From NCBI RefSeq assembly GCF_009811555.1, contig NZ_BLIN01000003.1, forward strand, positions 1,550,001 through 1,614,000: a DNA stretch of 64,000 bases, in the 5' to 3' direction. The stretch comes from Streptomyces caniferus. GTDB lineage: Bacteria; Actinomycetota; Actinomycetes; Streptomycetales; Streptomycetaceae. Positions within the stretch are counted from its first letter, which is position 1. Each line of letters opens with the position of its first letter. The notes beneath the pieces were generated by a model. That model ran no database searches and had not been told where the DNA came from. It was given only the letters and a program-made list of their open reading frames with translations. The translations under genes were made by a program, and so were the position numbers. Shown one piece after another: positions 28,253 through 41,061 of this stretch.

Positions 28253-29851
28253 ATGAGGCCCTCCCGTACGACCCTGCGTGCCGCGATCAGCACCGTCTCC
28301 GCCGCGGTGCTCGCCACCACGGTTCTCGCCGGCGCCCCGGCCACCGCCCACGCGGCAGAGCGGGAATCCGTTCCAGCGGCAGCATCGTCGGGCTCCTCCG
28401 TGAGGTTCGTCGACATCCAGGGCGACGGCGGTATCACCCTCAAGGCGAACGTCTTCACTCCGGCCGGTGCCGACGGCACCCGGCGCTACCCGGTCATCGT
28501 GCTGCCCACCAGCTGGTCGATGCCGCAGATCGAGTACATGGCGCAGGCCAAGAAACTGGCCGACAAGGGCTATGTGGTCGTCGGATACAACTCGCGCGGG
28601 TTCTGGCAGTCCGGCGGGGAGATCGAAACCGCCGGGCCGAAGGACGTCGCCGACGCCTCGAAGGTCATCGACTGGACGCTGGCCCACACCCCGGCCGATC
28701 CGCAGAAGGTCGGGATGGCCGGAGTCTCCTACGGTGCCGGGATCAGCCTGCTGGCCTCCGCGTTCGACAAGCGGATCAAGGCAGTTGCGGCGCTCAGCGG
28801 CTGGGGCGACCTCGTCGGCTCGATCTACAGCGGCCGCACCGAGCACCGGCAGGCCGCGGAGTTCCTGGGCGCCACGGGCTCGCTGACCGGACGGCCCAGC
28901 CCCGAATTCCGCACGATCATGAAGGACTTCCTTGCCTCGAACCTGGACAAGGAGAAGGACCTGATCGAGTGGGGACGCAAGCGCTCCCCCGCCACCTACC
29001 TCGACAAGATCAACGCCAATGGCGCCGCCATCATGCTGGGCAACGCCTGGGGAGATTCGATCTTCCCGCCCAACCAGACCGCCGACTTCTACGAGAAGCT
29101 GACCGGGCCCAAGCGGCTGGAATTCCGCCCCGGCGACCATGCCACGGCCGAGGGGCTCGGGCTGTTCGGGCTGCCCAACGACACCTGGACCGACACCCAG
29201 CGGTGGTTCGACCACTACCTCAAGGGCGCGGACAACGGCGTCGACCGGGAATCGCCGGTGCTGCTCAAGTCCCGTTCCACCGGCGCGTACGAGGGCTACA
29301 AGAGCTGGAAGGACGTCCCGTCCGCGCAGCGGCGGATCGAGCTCGACGGCAGCCAGCAGATCAATACCAACTGGGACTCCGGCGCGGACGGCGGGCTGGT
29401 CATCCTCTCCAGCATGCTGGACCAGTTCCTCCGGCTGCCGCCGATGGCCTCGATCCCGCTGCTGCCGCGCTCGGTGACCGCCGTCTGGAAGTCCGAGCGC
29501 TACGACACCGGCCAGCGGGTCAGGGGGACCACCCGGCTGCACACCACCCTCACCAGCACCGCGGAGAGCGGCACCGCCATCGCCTACCTCTACGACGTGG
29601 GCCCGCTCGGCATCGGCAAGCTGGTCACCCACGCGCCGTACACCTTCCACGGCAAGACCCCGAACCAGCCCTTCGGCGTCGACCTGGACCTGTTCTCCAC
29701 GGCCTACGACGTCCCGGCCGGCCACCGTCTCGCGGTCGTCGTGGACACCGTCGACCCGCTCTACATCGAACACAACCCGAGCGGCGCCCGGCTGACGTTC
29801 TCCTCCCCGGCGAACGACCCGTCGTATGTATCGGTGCCGGTGCGCGACTAG
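28253..29851 (+). CDS. secreted alpha/beta hydrolase (CocE / X-Pro dipeptidyl-peptidase type)
   Basis: 532 residues. A Sec signal peptide (about residues 1-35, ending ATAHAAERES) is followed by an alpha/beta hydrolase domain with nucleophile Ser in GMAGVSYGAGISLL, and a C-terminal jelly-roll-like domain (RGTTRLHTTLTSTAESGTAIAYLYDV) as in CocE/NonD and S15 peptidases. It likely cleaves an ester or X-Pro peptide outside the cell. ATG 28253 is preceded by GGAG; longer frames upstream are non-coding. Monocistronic, under the nested dyad. Confidence 0.9.
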   Translation: MRPSRTTLRAAISTVSAAVLATTVLAGAPATAHAAERESVPAAASSGSSVRFVDIQGDGGITLKANVFTPAGADGTRRYPVIVLPTSWSMPQIEYMAQAKKLADKGYVVVGYNSRGFWQSGGEIETAGPKDVADASKVIDWTLAHTPADPQKVGMAGVSYGAGISLLASAFDKRIKAVAALSGWGDLVGSIYSGRTEHRQAAEFLGATGSLTGRPSPEFRTIMKDFLASNLDKEKDLIEWGRKRSPATYLDKINANGAAIMLGNAWGDSIFPPNQTADFYEKLTGPKRLEFRPGDHATAEGLGLFGLPNDTWTDTQRWFDHYLKGADNGVDRESPVLLKSRSTGAYEGYKSWKDVPSAQRRIELDGSQQINTNWDSGADGGLVILSSMLDQFLRLPPMASIPLLPRSVTAVWKSERYDTGQRVRGTTRLHTTLTSTAESGTAIAYLYDVGPLGIGKLVTHAPYTFHGKTPNQPFGVDLDLFSTAYDVPAGHRLAVVVDTVDPLYIEHNPSGARLTFSSPANDPSYVSVPVRD

Positions 29852-30035: not shown

Positions 30036-30836
30036 TCAGGTCTGCTGTCTGAAGGCCCGCTGGGCCAGCAGGTCGTCGGCCGAGAGCACGGCCCCCTCCC
30101 CGTCGGTGGCCTGCAATTCTTCGATCCGGACGGTTCGGTCCACCGGGCCGGGGCCGGCCAGGCGCTCCGCATAGGGCGAGCTGGGATGGGCAGCGAGCAG
30201 GCGCACCCGGCCATCGCCGGAGCCGCGTGGGGAGATCGGCACGACCGCGGCCGGGAAACCTCTGTCGTCCGTGACGAACAGCTCGAAGTCGTCGTACCGG
30301 AAGTGGTCGATGTCCACGATGGGCTTCGGGTAGTGGTGGTACCCGGCGGCCTTCGGGAGCACCCCGGAGTGGGTACCAGCGGGCAGCGGAACCGAGGCGT
30401 TGAATATCGAGTCCGTCCACTCGGCCACCTGCTCGGCAGTCTCGATGGGGGTGTCCAGGAGCCGTTGACCGTCGTCGTAGCCGAAGCTCTCGTACCCGGG
30501 CAGGGTGTCCGGGAACGCTCCGACCACCCGGGCGGCGCAGCGGCGGATGCGGTCCACCTTCGAAGGGTCCGCGCAGAATTGCGCCGACCACTCGATGCCG
30601 AGCGGCAGCAGCAGGCACAGCCAGCCGTCGCCGTCCTTCACCCACACTCCGCCGCCGTGGTGGTCCTGGTACGGGCCGGGTGAGAACGCCCAATCACCGG
30701 TCGTCCCGACGAGCTTGACCATCAATTTGCGGCTCGCCCGGTACTGGGAGCTCTCGGTACGGGGCGGATGGTCCGCCACAGAGATGGTCCACGGAAAGTC
30801 TTCGTGCTCCGGGTGTCCCCGTTCCGGGCTGTGCAT
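30036..30836 (-). CDS. uncharacterised protein, DUF6424-like
   Basis: 266 residues without signal peptide or membrane segment. Conserved-looking stretches include FPWTISVADHPPRTES, DHHGGGVWVKDGDGWLCLL and GIEWSAQFCADPSKVDRIR. From memory these match the actinobacterial family named DUF6424; no function is known. ATG 30836 has AAGGAG in front. It is convergent with the secreted hydrolase (184-bp gap) and divergent from the membrane-protein gene at 31322. Confidence 0.7.
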   Translation of the reverse strand: MHSPERGHPEHEDFPWTISVADHPPRTESSQYRASRKLMVKLVGTTGDWAFSPGPYQDHHGGGVWVKDGDGWLCLLLPLGIEWSAQFCADPSKVDRIRRCAARVVGAFPDTLPGYESFGYDDGQRLLDTPIETAEQVAEWTDSIFNASVPLPAGTHSGVLPKAAGYHHYPKPIVDIDHFRYDDFELFVTDDRGFPAAVVPISPRGSGDGRVRLLAAHPSSPYAERLAGPGPVDRTVRIEELQATDGEGAVLSADDLLAQRAFRQQT

Positions 30837-31321: not shown

Positions 31322-32641
31322 GTGCGGACACCCCCCGTGCCTCACCCGCACCCGCACCCGCACCCGCACCCGAAAGCGCGACGGCCCTCGCTGAGAACCT
31401 GGCGGTCGCGGGTGGCCCTGGCAGCGATCGTGCTGGTCCTCCTCATGACCACGGTGATGCTGGCCCGGTTCGGCCTCGATGACTTCGTCCATGATCTGAC
31501 CTTCGCCGGTCGCCTCACCGGCGCCGTCCTTCTCGTGGTCTCGTTCACCACTCTCGTGAGCGCCGCCGCGGTCCTGGACCACTGGATCCGGCAGAGCTAC
31601 CCCTACTCCGGCCTGGTCGCGCTGATCGGCACGTTCGCGGCCTTCCTGACGAACGCCATGCTCCTGGTGCAGACAGTCAGGAACGATTCCGTGTTCTTCC
31701 CGGCACTGTTCGGGGCGCTCACGGCGGGTTCGGCATACGCCGTCTTCGCGGTGGGGCGGACGTCGGTCGTGATCCCCGCTCCGAAGCGGGTGGCCGCCGC
31801 GGTGATCGTCTCCTCGGTCATCGCGATCGCCAATTTCGGCTACCAGAACCTCTATCAGCCGTACCAGCGACAAACCAGGCCTCTCATCACGTTGTCCATG
31901 GGAAGGCCGGTGCTGAGCAAGGACCGCACGGCATTCGCCGTACCGGTCGACATCACCCTCCGAAACCACGGCGACGTGGGCTTCTACGTGCTGGGCACCG
32001 AGTTCCACGCCATGGGGAAACAGGTGCCGCTGAGCCCGAGGGACCGGCTCCGCCAGCAGTGGCGAGCCGATGCCGAGCAGTGGCAGAAATCGGAGGAAGT
32101 GAACCCGCTCTCCCGCCGGGAGATGCACCAGCCCGGCGAGTTGGTCGAGGCAAAACCGTGGATGGAACGTGGATGGTGGGTTGAGGCGAACGACACCTTC
32201 ACCACGCGAGTGGTGGTGCAACTGCCCAGGGACACGCCGTACGACCAGGTGGCGCTCTATGCTTCCGCGAGCCTCGCGCGCAAGGACCGGCTCGTGCTGC
32301 AGCCACCGTTCAATTTCGTGGCGTACTCCTGGGGCAGGCAAAAAGTCCCCGGATGGGTGAAGGCGCAACAGACAGGCGGTCGTGACTCTCTCATCTACCG
32401 TGCCAGGGTGCACGAGAACAATGCGATCGACGAACGCACGAGGGACCCGCGTCTCGTCACCGTCTACTGGAAGTTCGGCACGCACGGCGCGAGCGTGTTT
32501 TCCTCCATTGCGCGAAAAGGCGAGGAAAACCGCACCCTCCCCCCGGCGGAAGCAAGCGAGGTGGTGAACCGGTACGGCCTCGTCGACCTCATCACCGGCC
32601 CGGTCGAGCGGACCCTGTGGGACATCAAGAGCCAGCGCTGA
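31322..32641 (+). CDS. membrane protein of unknown function with His-Pro repeat N-terminus
   Basis: 439 residues from GTG 31322, chosen because GGAGG lies 7 nt upstream. A short Pro-His dipeptide repeat (residues 7-16, coded by five CCGCAC-like units) is followed by about five membrane helices (residues 32-185: VALAAIVLVLLMTTVML, GAVLLVVSFTTLVSAAAVL, YSGLVALIGTFAAFLTNAMLLV and two more). A 250-residue soluble domain follows (QTRPLITLSMGRPVLSKDRTAFAVPVDITLRNHGDVGFYVL). The latter looks beta-rich and probably faces outside. I do not recognise the family. Its 3' end overlaps the RiPP cyclase gene tail-to-tail by 17 bp, so a link to that locus is possible but unproven. Confidence 0.75.
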   Translation: MRTPPVPHPHPHPHPHPKARRPSLRTWRSRVALAAIVLVLLMTTVMLARFGLDDFVHDLTFAGRLTGAVLLVVSFTTLVSAAAVLDHWIRQSYPYSGLVALIGTFAAFLTNAMLLVQTVRNDSVFFPALFGALTAGSAYAVFAVGRTSVVIPAPKRVAAAVIVSSVIAIANFGYQNLYQPYQRQTRPLITLSMGRPVLSKDRTAFAVPVDITLRNHGDVGFYVLGTEFHAMGKQVPLSPRDRLRQQWRADAEQWQKSEEVNPLSRREMHQPGELVEAKPWMERGWWVEANDTFTTRVVVQLPRDTPYDQVALYASASLARKDRLVLQPPFNFVAYSWGRQKVPGWVKAQQTGGRDSLIYRARVHENNAIDERTRDPRLVTVYWKFGTHGASVFSSIARKGEENRTLPPAEASEVVNRYGLVDLITGPVERTLWDIKSQR

Positions 32642-34442
32642 CGGGCACCGCCGCGTCGGGCGCGCCGGAGCGCCGGTCCAGTCGTTCCAGCCAGGCCACC
32701 AGGGCGAGCGAACTGTTCACGCGATCCCAGGAGTACGAGTCCCCCAGGCCGAGCTGGGCCTCCCGCACGGCCCGGCACAGCGTCTCGACGTCGAACATCT
32801 CCGTGATCAGCGGGTGGCGGGCGGAGCGGCACAGGGCGATGAGTTCGTCGCCGTGTGTCCGCAGGCCGCGGGCGTAGAGGTCGTTGAAGGGCACCTTGAG
32901 CGCCCGGCCGCGGATCGGGGCCGGGAGGAGATCCGCCATGGCCTCTCGGAGCACGGCCTTCGGACGGCCCGGCCGGAACGCGGCGGCGGCAGGCAGCCGG
33001 CTCATCATCGCGACGACCTCCGGGTCGAGGAAGGGGTGCGAGAGGAAGAACCCGTCCCGTCGTGCGCGCTGCCAGGACAGCGGGTCGGGAGCGGCGACGT
33101 AATTGGCGGCGGCGTAGAGCGACTGTTCCGGCTTGCGTCCGTACACGAACCGGCTCTCCGCGATGCCCGCATCCCGATAGCCGTGAGCGCGCGCGAATCC
33201 GGGTCGCAGCCATCCGGGGCGGTTGAAGGTACCGAGGCCGCCGAGCACCGTTCCACCGCGGCGGAGCGCGGTGATCCGTTCGGCTGCCAGCGGGAAGGCC
33301 GGCCGCACCACGTAGGCGTGGACGATGTCCCGCAGGCCCCGCTCGCTTCCCGCGGCCCAGGCTCGTGCCTGCTCGGTCATCTGCCGTAGCCGTCCGGTGC
33401 GGGCCAGCCTGTGCAGGTGGTACGGGTTGGCGTCCACGACCGGATCGGCCCCGCAGCCGGTCAGGAGCGTGTCACAGCCCAGTTCGGCGGCCGCGGCGTG
33501 GAGCCTGGCCCAGAACGGGGCGCGGAAGGCGTGCGCCGAGGGTTCGTCGGCGTCTCCCGCGTGGTGCTGGAAGTCGTCGAAGTCGGCCACGTCGTCGGCA
33601 TCGACCATCACGGCGCGGGCCGCGGGTGTGTGACGGCGGATCGCCTCCATCGCGACGTCGAGGTACGGCCGCTCCGCGGCCAGCTCCCCGCGGGAGAAAC
33701 GCCCGGCGAGCAGGACCAGGTCCCCGGCGCCGCCCCGTTCCTCGGCCAGCAGGCGTGCGGCGAGCAGCGCGACGCTGGTGGAGTCGGTGCCGCCCGAGAC
33801 ATGGCATGCCGTCGTCGTGCCCATGCGGCGTCCGACAGCGGTCTCCAGCGCGAGGCGCAACTCCTGCGCGGCCTCGTCGAGGCAGGCGCCGTCGGCAGTC
33901 GGCTCGGGCAGGCCGGTGGCCCGGCGGGCCGGTCGCAGCGTACGGCTGCGCAGTTGCCCGGTGAGGGACAGCTCGACCACCTCGCCGCCGAGGACGCGGT
34001 GCACCCCGGCGAACGGGGTGAGGTCCGAGTGCGGTTGCGCCAGGTTCCCGGTGAGGTAGCGGCAGAAGTAGCGGGGTTCCAGCTCTGTGGCGGTCCCCAG
34101 GCAGCGGACCGAGGTGCTCACGGCGCTCACGCGGCCACCGGACTCCCGGAAGAACAGCGGGATGCGTGCCTGCTCGTCCCGCATCAGAAGGATGCGGTCG
34201 CGGCAGACCAGCACGGCCGCGTAGTCGCCGGCCGGCACGGGCGGGGCGGCCGGCTGCCTGCCGGAGTCGTCGAGGAGACCGCGCGCGCCCGCCGCCCGGT
34301 CGCGGGCCGAGCCGACCCAGCCGACGACGGCCGCGGTGCCGGCCCGTGAGGTGACCGTCGTCACGAGTCCCTGACGCGCCATGGCCTCGCTGGGCCGTAG
34401 TCTCGGTGCGCCCCCGGCCCAGTCGAGGCGGAGCGCTTCCAT
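32625..34442 (-). CDS. lasso-type asparagine-synthetase-like macrolactam cyclase (C protein)
   Basis: 605 residues. The N-terminal ~190 residues are a degenerate class II glutamine amidotransferase domain without the N-terminal Cys. The synthetase domain follows, with the ATP pyrophosphatase loop SGGTDSTS at residues 216-223, then DTLLTGCGADPVVDAN and SLYAAANYVAAPDPLSWQRARRDGF. In McjC-type cyclases this domain adenylates an Asp/Glu side chain of the precursor and closes an isopeptide ring with the core N-terminus. The ATG at 34442 lies one base after the McjB-type stop (TGACATG), so the two are coupled. Confidence 0.85.
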   Translation of the reverse strand: MEALRLDWAGGAPRLRPSEAMARQGLVTTVTSRAGTAAVVGWVGSARDRAAGARGLLDDSGRQPAAPPVPAGDYAAVLVCRDRILLMRDEQARIPLFFRESGGRVSAVSTSVRCLGTATELEPRYFCRYLTGNLAQPHSDLTPFAGVHRVLGGEVVELSLTGQLRSRTLRPARRATGLPEPTADGACLDEAAQELRLALETAVGRRMGTTTACHVSGGTDSTSVALLAARLLAEERGGAGDLVLLAGRFSRGELAAERPYLDVAMEAIRRHTPAARAVMVDADDVADFDDFQHHAGDADEPSAHAFRAPFWARLHAAAAELGCDTLLTGCGADPVVDANPYHLHRLARTGRLRQMTEQARAWAAGSERGLRDIVHAYVVRPAFPLAAERITALRRGGTVLGGLGTFNRPGWLRPGFARAHGYRDAGIAESRFVYGRKPEQSLYAAANYVAAPDPLSWQRARRDGFFLSHPFLDPEVVAMMSRLPAAAAFRPGRPKAVLREAMADLLPAPIRGRALKVPFNDLYARGLRTHGDELIALCRSARHPLITEMFDVETLCRAVREAQLGLGDSYSWDRVNSSLALVAWLERLDRRSGAPDAAVPVSAGS

Positions 34443-34443
34443 G

Positions 34444-35067
34444 TCAGGGTCCTCCGCAGTCGATCGAGAGCACCGGTGTGAAGGCGTGCCCTCGCGGATC
34501 GGCGTCGGGGATGCACAGGCCGCCCGAGACCGTCCACGCGTGCAGGGCAAACGGGTGTTCCCGCACGCCGACGTGGAGGACGGCTTTCAGGCCACACCGC
34601 CGCAGCAGGACGAAGGCCGTCACCGCCTCGGACTTGCAGTCGCCGTTGACGAACCAGCTTCTGCTGCTGTGTGACTGCACTGCTCGTTTCAGCCGCCCGA
34701 GCTCCTCCGCGGAGGGGAGGTCCGCACGGGCGTAACCCGGGGCGACCAAGGACAACAACCGGAGGACGCGCCCGAATCCAAGGGTCCGGATCAGCAGGTG
34801 CACGCCACCCAGCCAGAGCCCGACGCCGACGTCCGCGTATTTTCTGCGGCGGCCCGTCGCACACCCGGCACGCATGAGACCGATGACGAGTTCGGCGCGT
34901 TCCTCAGGGGTTCCGGAAGAGAATTTCTGGACTTCCGTCATCGCCAATCCGAGAAAACGCGTCCGCTTCCAGTCCGCGATCAGTGCTCCGTCGGACATCC
35001 GGGTGACACGGCAATGCGGTGACAGGATCCTTTCCATGGCCGCCAGGCCATCGACATACTCTGCCAC
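34444..35067 (-). CDS. McjB-type RiPP leader peptidase (B protein)
   Basis: 207 residues, the length of one-piece McjB proteins. The C-terminal transglutaminase-like protease domain has the full triad: C144 in NGDCKSEAVTAF, H176 in FALHAWTV and D188 in LCIPDADP. It aligns with E. coli McjB through LLRRCGLKAVLHVGVREHPF. The N-terminal ~75 residues (HCRVTRMSDGALIADWKRTRFLGLAMTE) occupy the place of the PqqD-like leader-recognition domain. The GTG at 35067 has GGAGG 7 nt upstream. It lies 33 bp downstream of the 38-codon precursor candidate and directly upstream of the cyclase. Confidence 0.85.
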   Translation of the reverse strand: MAEYVDGLAAMERILSPHCRVTRMSDGALIADWKRTRFLGLAMTEVQKFSSGTPEERAELVIGLMRAGCATGRRRKYADVGVGLWLGGVHLLIRTLGFGRVLRLLSLVAPGYARADLPSAEELGRLKRAVQSHSSRSWFVNGDCKSEAVTAFVLLRRCGLKAVLHVGVREHPFALHAWTVSGGLCIPDADPRGHAFTPVLSIDCGGP

Positions 35068-35086
35068 CGCATATCCTCCAGGGTTC

Positions 35087-35100
35087 CACCGTGAACGGTG
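35087..35100 (-). promoter_or_regulatory. hairpin between precursor and B gene
   Basis: CACCG (35087-35091) pairs with CGGTG (35096-35100) around a 4-nt loop, directly after the precursor stop codon and before the B-gene ribosome site. A hairpin here could let the precursor message outnumber the enzymes, as in many RiPP operons. Confidence 0.5.
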
Positions 35101-35217
35101 TCAGTGCTGGTATCCGTGACCGTCGTAGAATCCGCCGCTGAATCCGCGGATCAGACAACCGTCACCGAGAAAAACGAGCCGATGCGGCTTACGGCGCCGC
35201 AGCAATCGGAGAATCAT
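35101..35217 (-). CDS. candidate RiPP (lasso-like) precursor peptide, 38 aa
   Basis: Small gene starting at ATG 35217 with GGAGG 6 nt upstream, ending 33 bp before the McjB-type gene. The N-terminal half is basic (LRLLRRRKPHR). It continues LVFLGDGCLIR, resembling the lasso leader motif PxLVEIGDF, and ends in the Gly/aromatic-rich GFSGGFYDGHGYQH. If leader removal occurs before G25, the core is 14 residues with Asp at position 8, the right geometry for an 8-residue Gly-Asp macrolactam. The usual Thr at -2 is absent (Ile here), and the Tyr/Pro recognition motif is only partial. No other ORF in the gap fits a precursor. Product class is inferred, not shown. Confidence 0.65.
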   Translation of the reverse strand: MILRLLRRRKPHRLVFLGDGCLIRGFSGGFYDGHGYQH

Positions 35218-35250
35218 CGCCCACCTCCAGAACGGCAGCACATCAACTCC

Positions 35251-35278
35251 AGGCTACTCCCGCCCGAATGCCCCGCAA
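35251..35278 (-). promoter_or_regulatory. possible promoter for the RiPP operon
   Basis: On the minus strand, TTGCGG (35273-35278) and TAGCCT (35251-35256) are 16 nt apart and lie 34-61 bp upstream of the precursor start. They resemble Streptomyces -35 and -10 boxes. A terminator upstream (35352-35375) implies that the operon needs its own promoter here. Confidence 0.4.
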
Positions 35279-35385: not shown

Positions 35386-35634
35386 CTACTGGATCGGGGA
35401 GTCGGGCGGGGGGAGCTGGACGGTGCGCTCCCGGTCGACGGATTCGACGCCGTCGACTGCCTCCAGAGCGGGAATCCGGTCCTCCGCGACGGTTCCGGAG
35501 AGCGTGCCGAGGGCCGGCTGCTCGCTCGTGACCGTCAGCCCGGCCCGCCGCAAGCCCGCCACCACTTCCGCGAACCGGTCGGGATCGACCGCGAGGATGA
35601 TCCCGACCGGCGCGGGCTGGGACGGCTCGCTCAC
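35386..35634 (-). CDS. small I9/propeptide-like protein coupled to the subtilase
   Basis: 82 residues (PVGIILAVDPDRFAEVVAGLRRAGL, IPALEAVDGVESVDRERTVQLPP). The strand-helix-strand pattern and the ALEAVDGVESVDRERTV tail resemble the inhibitor-I9 / subtilisin-propeptide fold. The GTG at 35634 overlaps the subtilase stop (GTGA), so the two are made together. A dedicated inhibitor, chaperone or immunity protein for the subtilase is the best inference; no experiment or close named family supports it. No signal peptide. Confidence 0.7.
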   Translation of the reverse strand: MSEPSQPAPVGIILAVDPDRFAEVVAGLRRAGLTVTSEQPALGTLSGTVAEDRIPALEAVDGVESVDRERTVQLPPPDSPIQ

Positions 35635-36965
35635 GGCGCCTGGAGCAGACCCGAGCCGACGTCCCTGGCGGGCTGCGTCAGCGGGAAGGCACCGGACAGC
35701 AGACCGACTTTGAGATCGGCCGCGGAAGCGTGGGGGTTCGCCTGGGCGAGCAAGGCGAGGACGCCCGCGACATGCGGCGTGGCCATGCTGGTGCCGCTCA
35801 GGCTCTGGTACCCGCCTCCAGGGGCGGCCGAGCGCACGTCCCTGCCGGGCGCGGCGATGTTGACCTCGCCGCCCTGGCCGTTGATGCCGCCGTTGGAGAA
35901 GAACGACGGCGTGAGTGCCTTGTCGAGCGCGCTCACCGCGAGGATGGAGGGGCAGTTGGCGGGCCGGCCGACGGGCCGGATCTCCGGCGGCCGATGGCTG
36001 TCGTTGCCCGCGGCGGCGACGATGACCGTCCCGCGCTCGAGCGCGCGCTGGGCCAGCTTCTCGTACGTCTGCGGGAAGAGCTCACCCGGTCGGACCCCGG
36101 CGCCGAGCGACATGGAGATCACTCGCGCACCGTGGGCGACGGCCCAGGCCATGCCCGCCAGGATCTGGCCATCGGTGCCGCTGCCCGCGTTGTTGAGCAC
36201 CTTCGCCACGAGGATCCGGGCCTCGCAGGCCACCCCGTAGCGGGGTCCCTGCCGGGGTTTTGCCGGACCGGCAGCGGTGCCGATGCAGTGCGTGCCGTGG
36301 CCGTTGCCGTCCTCGACGGCCTCGCCGGGCACGAAGGAGGCCGACGCCTCGATGCGCCCGCCCAGGTCCGGGTGGTCGGTGTCCACGCCGGTGTCGATGA
36401 CGGCGATCTTCACATCGCGTCCGGTCAGGCTGGACAGATTGGCCCGGATCGCCTGCAGGCCCCAGGTCCAGTTCTCCTCGTCCAGGGCCGGGCCCTGGGC
36501 AGCGGCGATTTCGGCCACGGTGTGATGGGCGACCACTTCCTCGTCGCTGCGGTAGGCCGGGAAGAACTCGGTCGGCGCCTGCTGCGGGGCGGTGATCGGC
36601 GAAGCGTAGACCATACGCTCCGGTTCTGCCGCGATGATCGAGGGTTCCGCCTCGGCCGAGGTCACCAGCGCGTGGCGCTGCTCGGGCCGCACCTCGACGA
36701 CTGCGGCGCCGAGTTCCTCGAAGAGCACCGAGACGTCGGGGCGCTCGAGGAGTTCGGCGACCTGCGCGGCGTCGGTTCCTCGGACACGTTCGACGGACGC
36801 GATGTCGGCAGCGGAACGCAGTGCGTTCAGCCCGCTCTCCTGGTCGCCCGGTTCGAGCAGGACCACGTATCGGCCTGTGTACTCCGTGCCCTGGCCCGGG
36901 ACGGTGCCATGGGGCCGATCGGGATGCTCGCCGAAGGCGCGCCTGTCCATGGGTCCGTTCGCCAT
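35631..36965 (-). CDS. S8 (subtilisin-like) serine protease without signal peptide
   Basis: 444 residues. The first ~125 residues form a propeptide-like region (YVVLLEPGDQESGLNALRS, VSVLFEELGAAVVEVRPEQRHAL). The catalytic domain has D191 in VIDTGVDTDHPDL, H223 in NGHGTHCIGT, oxyanion N321 in AAAGNDS and nucleophile S393 in SGTSMATPHVAG. All catalytic residues are intact. There is no Sec/Tat signal, so the enzyme is intracellular or leaves by another route. It heads a two-gene operon with the small I9-like protein. Because a terminator separates it from the RiPP genes, use as their leader protease is only a possibility. Confidence 0.9.
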   Translation of the reverse strand: MANGPMDRRAFGEHPDRPHGTVPGQGTEYTGRYVVLLEPGDQESGLNALRSAADIASVERVRGTDAAQVAELLERPDVSVLFEELGAAVVEVRPEQRHALVTSAEAEPSIIAAEPERMVYASPITAPQQAPTEFFPAYRSDEEVVAHHTVAEIAAAQGPALDEENWTWGLQAIRANLSSLTGRDVKIAVIDTGVDTDHPDLGGRIEASASFVPGEAVEDGNGHGTHCIGTAAGPAKPRQGPRYGVACEARILVAKVLNNAGSGTDGQILAGMAWAVAHGARVISMSLGAGVRPGELFPQTYEKLAQRALERGTVIVAAAGNDSHRPPEIRPVGRPANCPSILAVSALDKALTPSFFSNGGINGQGGEVNIAAPGRDVRSAAPGGGYQSLSGTSMATPHVAGVLALLAQANPHASAADLKVGLLSGAFPLTQPARDVGSGLLQAP

Positions 36966-39884: not shown

Positions 39885-40454
39885 TCAGTCGAACGAAGCC
39901 AGCTGCCGGTGTGCGGACCAGGCGCGCAGTGCCACCTTGTCCTTGAAGTTTCCGATGTTCGTGTCGACCGGGCGATCGGTGTACTGGTGGAACATCCACG
40001 GGTGCTGGATGTCGGGCCGGCCGGGCTTGCCGTTGTACTGGGCTATCCACAGGCCGTCCCCGGCGAACGACGTACTGTCACGGTGCAGCCAGAAATCCCG
40101 GTTGCAGTAGAGCACTGTCCTGTGCCCCGGCGTGCGGTGCTGTACGTGCTTGATCCAGTTGTCCTTGAAGGAGTTCGGGACGCCATGGTCCTCCCAGTCG
40201 AGGGCGAGGATGTCCCCGTCCGCCAGCTTGATCTTGGAGAGGAAGAAGTCGGCCTGGGCTTCAAAGGATCCGGGCCGGGCGAAATGATAGAAGCCGGTCA
40301 CCAGTCCGGCGTCTCGTGCGGTCTTGCGCTGGGCGGCCCACTTGGGGTTCGTGTAGGTGGTCCCCTCCGTGATTTTGATGAAGACGAAGGCGAATCCGTC
40401 GGTGTGGTATTTCGCCGACTGGAACGACGAGACATCGATTCCTTTGATGGTCAT
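39885..40454 (-). CDS. GH25 muramidase (lysozyme) without signal peptide
   Basis: 189 residues, essentially a bare GH25 catalytic domain of phage-endolysin type. The acidic catalytic set is visible: D7 in GIDVSSFQ, E30 in IKITEGTTYTNP, D86 and E88 in LALDWEDHG. It cleaves the MurNAc-GlcNAc bond of peptidoglycan. There is no signal peptide or wall-binding repeat, so it needs lysis, a holin or another export path. The ribosome site GAGGAG lies in the 10-bp gap after the amidase gene, so the two form an operon. Confidence 0.92.
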   Translation of the reverse strand: MTIKGIDVSSFQSAKYHTDGFAFVFIKITEGTTYTNPKWAAQRKTARDAGLVTGFYHFARPGSFEAQADFFLSKIKLADGDILALDWEDHGVPNSFKDNWIKHVQHRTPGHRTVLYCNRDFWLHRDSTSFAGDGLWIAQYNGKPGRPDIQHPWMFHQYTDRPVDTNIGNFKDKVALRAWSAHRQLASFD

Positions 40455-40464
40455 GGTCAGCTCC

Positions 40465-41061
40465 TCAGGTGGCGGCGAGGCGCCTGGCGACCCTCGCGCG
40501 CATGCTCTCCATCGTGAATCCCTTGGGATCGATCTTGCCGGGCTGCCACTCCAGGTGGCCGATCACGCTGCCGGCGTGCCAGCCGTAGGCGCGGCAGATC
40601 GCGGCTGCCGCCTTTTCGATCGCCTCGAGTTGCTTCTCCGGCCAGGGGTCGATTCCGTCGCCGAGGTTCTCGCATTCGAATCCGTAGAACCTCGCGTTGC
40701 CGTCGGTGTTCTGCTCGTTGTCAGGAGGCAGCGGCCTCTCGTCGATGACGGCCCGAAGCACATCGTCGTCGCCCGGGCCGGCGTGATTCGTGCGACCGTT
40801 GCCCACCATGTAGACGACGCCGTCCTTGCCGATGACGCCGTGGCACAGCGGGCCGGGAAGATCCGGGCGGCCGTTGTAGCAGAGGTTGACGGTGTTCTTC
40901 GTGTCGGAAGTGACGGTGTGGTGGATCATCACACCGTTCACATTGTTGAACGGACCCTTGTGATTGCGGTTGTGGTGGCGCCAATCACGGGTCTCCTCGA
41001 TGACCAGGTCTTCGTTGCGGAGTACCCGGAGCATCTGGTCCGCGGTCATGGGTGCGGCCAT
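40465..41061 (-). CDS. PGRP/Amidase_2-type peptidoglycan amidase without signal peptide
   Basis: 198 residues. The zinc ligands of a T7-lysozyme-like N-acetylmuramoyl-L-alanine amidase are visible in GVMIHHTVTSD and in GHLEWQPGKIDPKGF, with HAGPGDDD nearby. It cuts the amide between MurNAc and L-Ala, complementing the GH25 enzyme downstream. ATG 41061 has GGAGG upstream. Like the GH25 it has no signal peptide; the pair resembles a two-enzyme endolysin cassette, but no holin, tail or capsid gene is present. Confidence 0.9.
   Translation of the reverse strand: MAAPMTADQMLRVLRNEDLVIEETRDWRHHNRNHKGPFNNVNGVMIHHTVTSDTKNTVNLCYNGRPDLPGPLCHGVIGKDGVVYMVGNGRTNHAGPGDDDVLRAVIDERPLPPDNEQNTDGNARFYGFECENLGDGIDPWPEKQLEAIEKAAAAICRAYGWHAGSVIGHLEWQPGKIDPKGFTMESMRARVARRLAAT

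Follow-up and report, generated by a model that had tools for sequence, protein, structure and literature searches.

A conserved gene module for a predicted lasso-like peptide, with a convergent membrane-protein gene, in Streptomyces

The window analyzed here, a 64,000-nt stretch of Streptomyces caniferus (assembly GCF_009811555.1, contig NZ_BLIN01000003.1, positions 1,550,001–1,614,000 of the forward strand), contains a compact peptide gene module; all positions are given relative to the window. The module lies on the minus strand at positions 35217–32625 and consists of a precursor gene (A), a McjB-type peptidase gene (B), and an asparagine-synthetase-like cyclase gene (C), with a membrane-protein gene, F1, converging on C. 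It is best read, with a probability of about 0.7, as a lasso-like RiPP (ribosomally synthesized and post-translationally modified peptide) pathway leading to a Gly1–Asp8 macrolactam that would act together with F1. Given the genes present and a Gly1/Asp8 pair that never varies, a lasso-like macrolactam is the most likely product. At the sequence level, the gene set, the conserved residues, the linkage, and the co-occurrence are established, and the A-B-C module is a conserved subfamily within Streptomyces. The features of the locus are the following:

35251..35278, minus strand: conserved promoter, taken to be sigma-70-like, TTGCGG-N16-TAGCCT, about 35 nt upstream of A
35224..35228, minus strand: ribosome-binding site GGAGG, 6 nt before the ATG of A
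35101..35217, minus strand: gene A, 38-aa precursor MILRLLRRRKPHRLVFLGDGCLIRGFSGGFYDGHGYQH, ATG at 35217, stop ending at 35101; leader residues 1–24, predicted core residues 25–38, GFSGGFYDGHGYQH
34444..35067, minus strand: gene B, McjB-type leader peptidase, 207 aa, GTG at 35067 (NF033537, PF13471)
34852..35031, minus strand: RRE-like (RiPP recognition element-like) N-terminal region of B, residues 13–72 (AlphaFold fold, weak structure matches)
32625..34442, minus strand: gene C, asparagine-synthetase-like macrolactam cyclase, 605 aa, with SGGTDS (Pfam Asn_synthase)
31322..32641, plus strand: gene F1, membrane protein, 439 aa, GTG at 31322 with its own GGAGG, convergent with C

A sequence-only reading of this locus had described the anatomy of A, B, and C, including their coordinates, the 33-bp gap between A and B (35068–35100), the coupling of B and C via TGACATG, and the GGAGG 6 nt before the start of A, all of which were confirmed from the sequence. 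It had also proposed a distinct subfamily, which the comparisons described below support.

Gene A and its predicted core peptide

A protein search with B returned 171 homologues; the best 120 of the 171 showed 71–92% identity, and the NCBI-named entries among these 120 were Streptomyces lasso B2 proteins. Additionally, 34 comparison loci were retrieved from public Streptomyces genomes with a profile of 16 sequences. In all 34 of these B-related loci, a 38- or 39-codon open reading frame (ORF) with the same ending was observed upstream of B. The pooled dN/dS ratio (Nei–Gojobori counts with Jukes–Cantor correction, 37 distinct DNA sequences) was 0.34 over the entire ORF; the leader gave 0.38, the core 0.27, and residues 25–36 gave 0.15. 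The possibility of a chance ORF was rejected on the basis of the 34/34 conservation and these ratios, and gene A is, by sequence, a real gene. The earlier proposal that A is a genuine precursor was upheld, and neither of the two outcomes named in advance as refuting it, a different precursor beside B homologues elsewhere or a small ORF lacking amino-acid conservation, was observed in the 34 loci. Tandem A genes in locus L026 form an exact repeat across an N and were taken as an assembly artefact.

Among 34 distinct 38-aa peptides, the constant columns were Met1, Arg4, Gly18, Arg24, Gly25, Ser27, Gly28, Asp32, Gly33, His34, and Gly35. The wider set comprises 38 distinct peptides, namely 37 plus the product of a second, 39-aa A in genome G221, which lies at the F1 site of that genome without B or C. 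Arg24 is not absolute, as His occupies this position in the second A of G221 and in the A of L113. A predicted 14-residue core with Gly1 and Asp8 was found in 38/38 peptides; Asp8 is the sole core acid in 32 of them, and the other six carry a second acid at position 5 or 6. Seven of the 14 core positions (1, 3, 4, 8, 9, 10, and 11) are constant in the 37 distinct peptides and three more vary in at most three of them, the most variable being position 6 and the last two. Gly25 was chosen as the first core residue because only cuts before Arg24, Gly25, or Phe26 would place the Asp at 7–9, and Gly25 alone is constant in all peptides; cuts before Gly20 and before Ser27, which would place the Asp at 13 and 6, respectively, were rejected.

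The leader departs from familiar lasso rules. The residue at −2 is Ile in 37 of the 38 distinct peptides and Val in one, never Thr, so that both the Gly1/Asp8 pair and the Ile in place of Thr held as first described. The YxxPxL pattern is likewise missing: Pro11 is present in 33/34 peptides, residue 8 is Arg (30), Leu (2), or Ile (2) but never Tyr, and the conserved leader Leu stands at 14 (31/34) and not at 13, as YxxPxL would need. With the Thr(−2) and YxxP rules broken, motif-based searches may miss the family. A linear Streptomyces plasmid of 114 kb (L178, NZ_CP106796.1) also carries a copy of the module, and the feature table inspected for this RefSeq record has no entry for gene A.

Of 39 distinct regions upstream of A, all but that of L027 (38/39) carry the form TTGC..-N16-TA...., with exact 16-nt spacing and small variations, and a stricter pattern matches the window at 35251..35278 only. 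In the listed relatives, too, A is preceded by GGAG or GGAGG. The second A of G221, which is outside the 39, has a different upstream sequence without this promoter form; a palindrome, TAGTAC-N8-GTACTA, occurs there (L098) in its place and is possibly an operator.

Peptidase, cyclase, and proposed product

The assignment of B and C to lasso-type enzymes, made in the sequence-only reading, is borne out by family models. B scored 73.2 bits against NCBIfam lasso_biosyn_B2 (NF033537, cut-off 33) and passed Pfam Transglut_core3 (PF13471) with 77.3 bits, while C scored 86.7 bits against Pfam Asn_synthase (PF00733), above the cut-off. The B triad is C144/H176/D188, with the Cys and His present in 34/34 loci and the Asp in 32/34, and its spacing is like that of McjB. 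The SGGxDS motif was found in 34 of the 35 family cyclases read; it is missing in L025, where the frame of C is broken. C falls below the NCBIfam cut-offs of NF033535 and NF033561. Its sole match in a sequence search of solved structures was beta-lactam synthetase, and PDB sequence searches with the B and F1 profiles gave 0 matches each. In a cyclase tree in which the family was represented by 9 of the 35 cyclases, these nine formed one long-stemmed clade (100/100).

The AlphaFold model of B contains strands at residues 20–24, 27–32, and 37–42, followed by helices, with weak matches to lasso B1/RRE structures, so that the first ~80 residues weakly resemble a fused RRE domain. A long, fused-type B was also observed in 7 of 20 other Streptomycetaceae B2 loci inspected, some adjoining a GNAT acetyltransferase, and B fusion alone is therefore no subfamily marker.

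From these data we infer leader binding, the cut site, the ring, its threading, and a role for F1. The 38-residue precursor encoded by A would be held through its basic, hydrophobic leader (residues 1–24) by the RRE-like N-terminus of B, which would cleave between Arg24 and Gly25. C would activate the Asp32 side chain with ATP and couple it to the freshly exposed N-terminus. The resulting 14-residue product would have an 8-residue ring (Gly1–Asp8) and the six-residue tail GHGYQH; the calculated mass of this cyclic core is 1509.606 ([M+2H]2+ 755.81), against 1527.617 for the linear form. The mature peptide would act with, on, or through F1, whose Ig-like domain is probably outside the cell; F1 would occupy the place that a transporter gene takes in many lasso loci.

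The same enzymes might instead yield an unthreaded, branched-cyclic Gly1–Asp8 macrolactam, which would be no true lasso. Threading is unreadable from sequence, and both the short tail of only six residues and the departure from the leader rules of known lassos would fit this product. However, B and C are of lasso type, lassos of 14 residues exist (canucin), and Tyr12 or His10 could serve as plugs. We consider an unthreaded product unlikely and favor the lasso-like peptide.

The convergent membrane protein F1

Genes were called and clustered in the 34 loci and the window, giving 35 neighbourhoods. C was present in 35/35 and F1 in 32/35 (31 of the 34 loci plus the window); B was grouped in only 16/35, as the gene caller often missed it. 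The locus had initially been taken to consist of three genes only, a view that the near-constant presence of the convergent F1 gene overturns. The stop ends of C and F1 overlap by 17 bp in the window, by 10–23 bp in 30/32 cases, and by exactly 17 bp in 25/32; the exceptions are L025 (C and F1 frames broken) and L026 (C and F1 separated by an unexplained 205 bp). Loci L007, L032, and L035 contained no recognizable F1, tblastn included. Structure prediction of a 409-aa form of F1 gave five helices and an Ig-like beta-sandwich domain. Scanning the 501-aa frame that includes F1 yielded no match above cut-off to any Pfam or NCBIfam family.

The association extends to genome samples, in which the searches covered A, B, and F1, not C. 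Across a sample of 297 genomes of the family, B-profile hits occurred in 28 (E ≤ 0.001), 10 of them at ≥328 bits and the other 18 at ≤33.5 bits, and A (E ≤ 0.01) was found in exactly the same 10 genomes as high-scoring B. F1 was detected in 38 of the 297 (E ≤ 0.001), the same 10 at ≥519 bits and the other 28 at ≤184 bits. Among 392 genomes of the genus, A was identified in 19, including one weak match (G400, E 0.007); close F1 (E ≤ 1e-80) occurred in exactly the other 18, and B stood beside A in all of these. Over the 28 A loci inspected, B adjoined A in 26, the exceptions being the weak match of G400 and the second A of G221. In total, 25 different genomes carry the set, the two samples sharing the positives G000, G221, and G273. 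Neither A-B without close F1 nor the reverse was found among the 297 and 392 genomes sampled; L035 was untested. A sample of the order contained A in 8 of 167 genomes, all Streptomyces and all already counted, and none outside this genus. In G088, A, B, and F1 occur twice (C1:104269-108108 and 10039446-10043285), close to either end of a 10.1 Mb contig, placed as if inside terminal inverted repeats.

F1 probably serves the peptide, whether by conferring immunity, acting as its receptor, or exporting it. Alternatively, F1 may have no role for the peptide, the co-occurrence arising solely from physical linkage and common descent. Linkage does hold in most genomes, and the 28 of 297 genomes with distant F1 homologues and no A imply other uses for the wider family; these relatives appear to form a wider, uncharacterised membrane-protein family, and their surroundings vary in the loci inspected (e.g., L105–L110). 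Any p-value would be inflated by linkage and common descent; the argument rests on the unlinked cases, as F1 lies far from A-B yet is present in G221, G237, and G241. G221 and G241 are indicated to be the genomes of L007 and L032, respectively, which accounts for two of the three loci without F1 nearby. In G221, moreover, the second A and F1 persist at a site without B and C, and, apart from A, B, C, and F1, every family is limited to at most 8 of the 35 neighbourhoods.

Two points weigh against a peptide-linked role. At the G221 site (L098), flanking genes are 90–97% identical to the flanks of the complete locus L031, whereas F1 is only 72% identical, so that F1 there may have diverged faster than its surroundings or have been exchanged; and B and F1 were scored on only the best few candidates per genome. 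Considering both sides, mere hitch-hiking of F1 appears quite improbable, and a function of F1 for the peptide is retained.

Regarding that function, no transporter was found among the recurring neighbour families of A-B-C, in agreement with the sequence-only reading. This absence would leave room for F1 as the exporter of the mature peptide, and its five helices could form a path. No resemblance to a transporter was found, although the best structural matches were confined to the Ig-like beta-sandwich, with the helical part barely tested; an exporter role in place of immunity or reception is doubtful. A more specific and rather less likely proposal is that F1 is the dedicated surface receptor of the near-invariant ring peptide, A-B-C-F1 being a signalling module of maker and sensor. 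If true, a peptide of the lasso type would have, in the strain that makes it, a membrane receptor that is fixed genetically. In known lassos, the core usually changes between strains. The constant peptide and constant membrane partner suggest a role within the producer group, such as a signal, immunity, or the cell envelope, and not an arms race.

Relation to known lasso systems and genomic surroundings

According to PMC6784204 (section 5), canonical actinobacterial lassos have a leader with a YxxPxL motif and Thr at −2, their B1 is separate, and an ABC transporter is often present. The module resembles the canonical class II actinobacterial systems in its Gly1 start, the acid at position 8, the B2-type peptidase, and the AsnB-like cyclase, but YxxPxL, Thr −2, a separate B1, and an ABC transporter were not found at A-B-C. 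The family is distinguished from these lassos by F1 and by the lack of the Thr and YxxP. The same review states that all actinobacterial lasso clusters have a separate RRE (PMC6784204); the long B proteins suggest that this may not be universal in actinobacteria.

Albusnodin loci, as outlined in a passage of PMC9266682, comprise albA, albB, albC, and albT, and hence a single B protein. The module shares the single B protein, and among NCBIfam models C matches NF033561 best; membership in the albusnodin family was rejected, as C scored 153.8 against a cut-off of 300 bits. The module differs in the lack of Thr at −2, its near-invariant core, the F1 partner, and a separate long-stemmed cyclase clade. 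No acetyltransferase was found among the recurring neighbours of A-B-C (F1 3′ of C and six of the next-commonest families were checked; rarer families were not all classified). In microcin J25, McjB and McjC likewise form a single B with its partner C; the differences lie in the precursor and in the McjD transporter, reported in part of PMC13352647 to serve both export and immunity, of which there is none here.

Canucins A and B from Streptomyces canus are 14-mer lassos according to a section of PMC9266682, which describes a CanB1 protein and, for canucin A, a hydroxylated C-terminal Asp14. The likeness to the present family is the 14-residue length, compared by description. The 14-residue length first proposed for the core stands in 38/38 peptides, and it has a precedent in these canucins. 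Neither the long, fused-type B nor the 14-mer length is a new trait. No earlier description of the locus or core was found in the open-licence literature searched, with subscription papers and supplements outside the search.

The genome of the window (G000) contains two further lasso B2 loci: L158 (C1:198752), which combines a long B with a GNAT acetyltransferase, is albusnodin-like, and L159 (C4:28139) has a split B1/B2 with an adjacent PCMT-type methyltransferase.

The next-commonest neighbour families include the following six: M4 peptidase, SpoIIE/PAS, DUF6424, alpha/beta hydrolase, metallo-beta-lactamase fold, and squalene/phytoene synthase. A nearby family whose scanned member is an M4 peptidase was observed in eight other loci, and the DUF6424 gene near the module (30036-30836, minus strand) also occurs in five others. 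Directly upstream of A, a subtilase-family peptidase gene (35631-36965, minus strand) is followed by an 82-aa ORF (35386-35634, minus strand), neither of which recurs in other loci. A tRNA scan of the window found none. Farther away, a frame at 28261 encodes an S15 peptidase, and two adjacent cell-wall hydrolase genes, a glycosyl hydrolase 25 and an N-acetylmuramoyl amidase, were identified at 39885-41061 on the minus strand.

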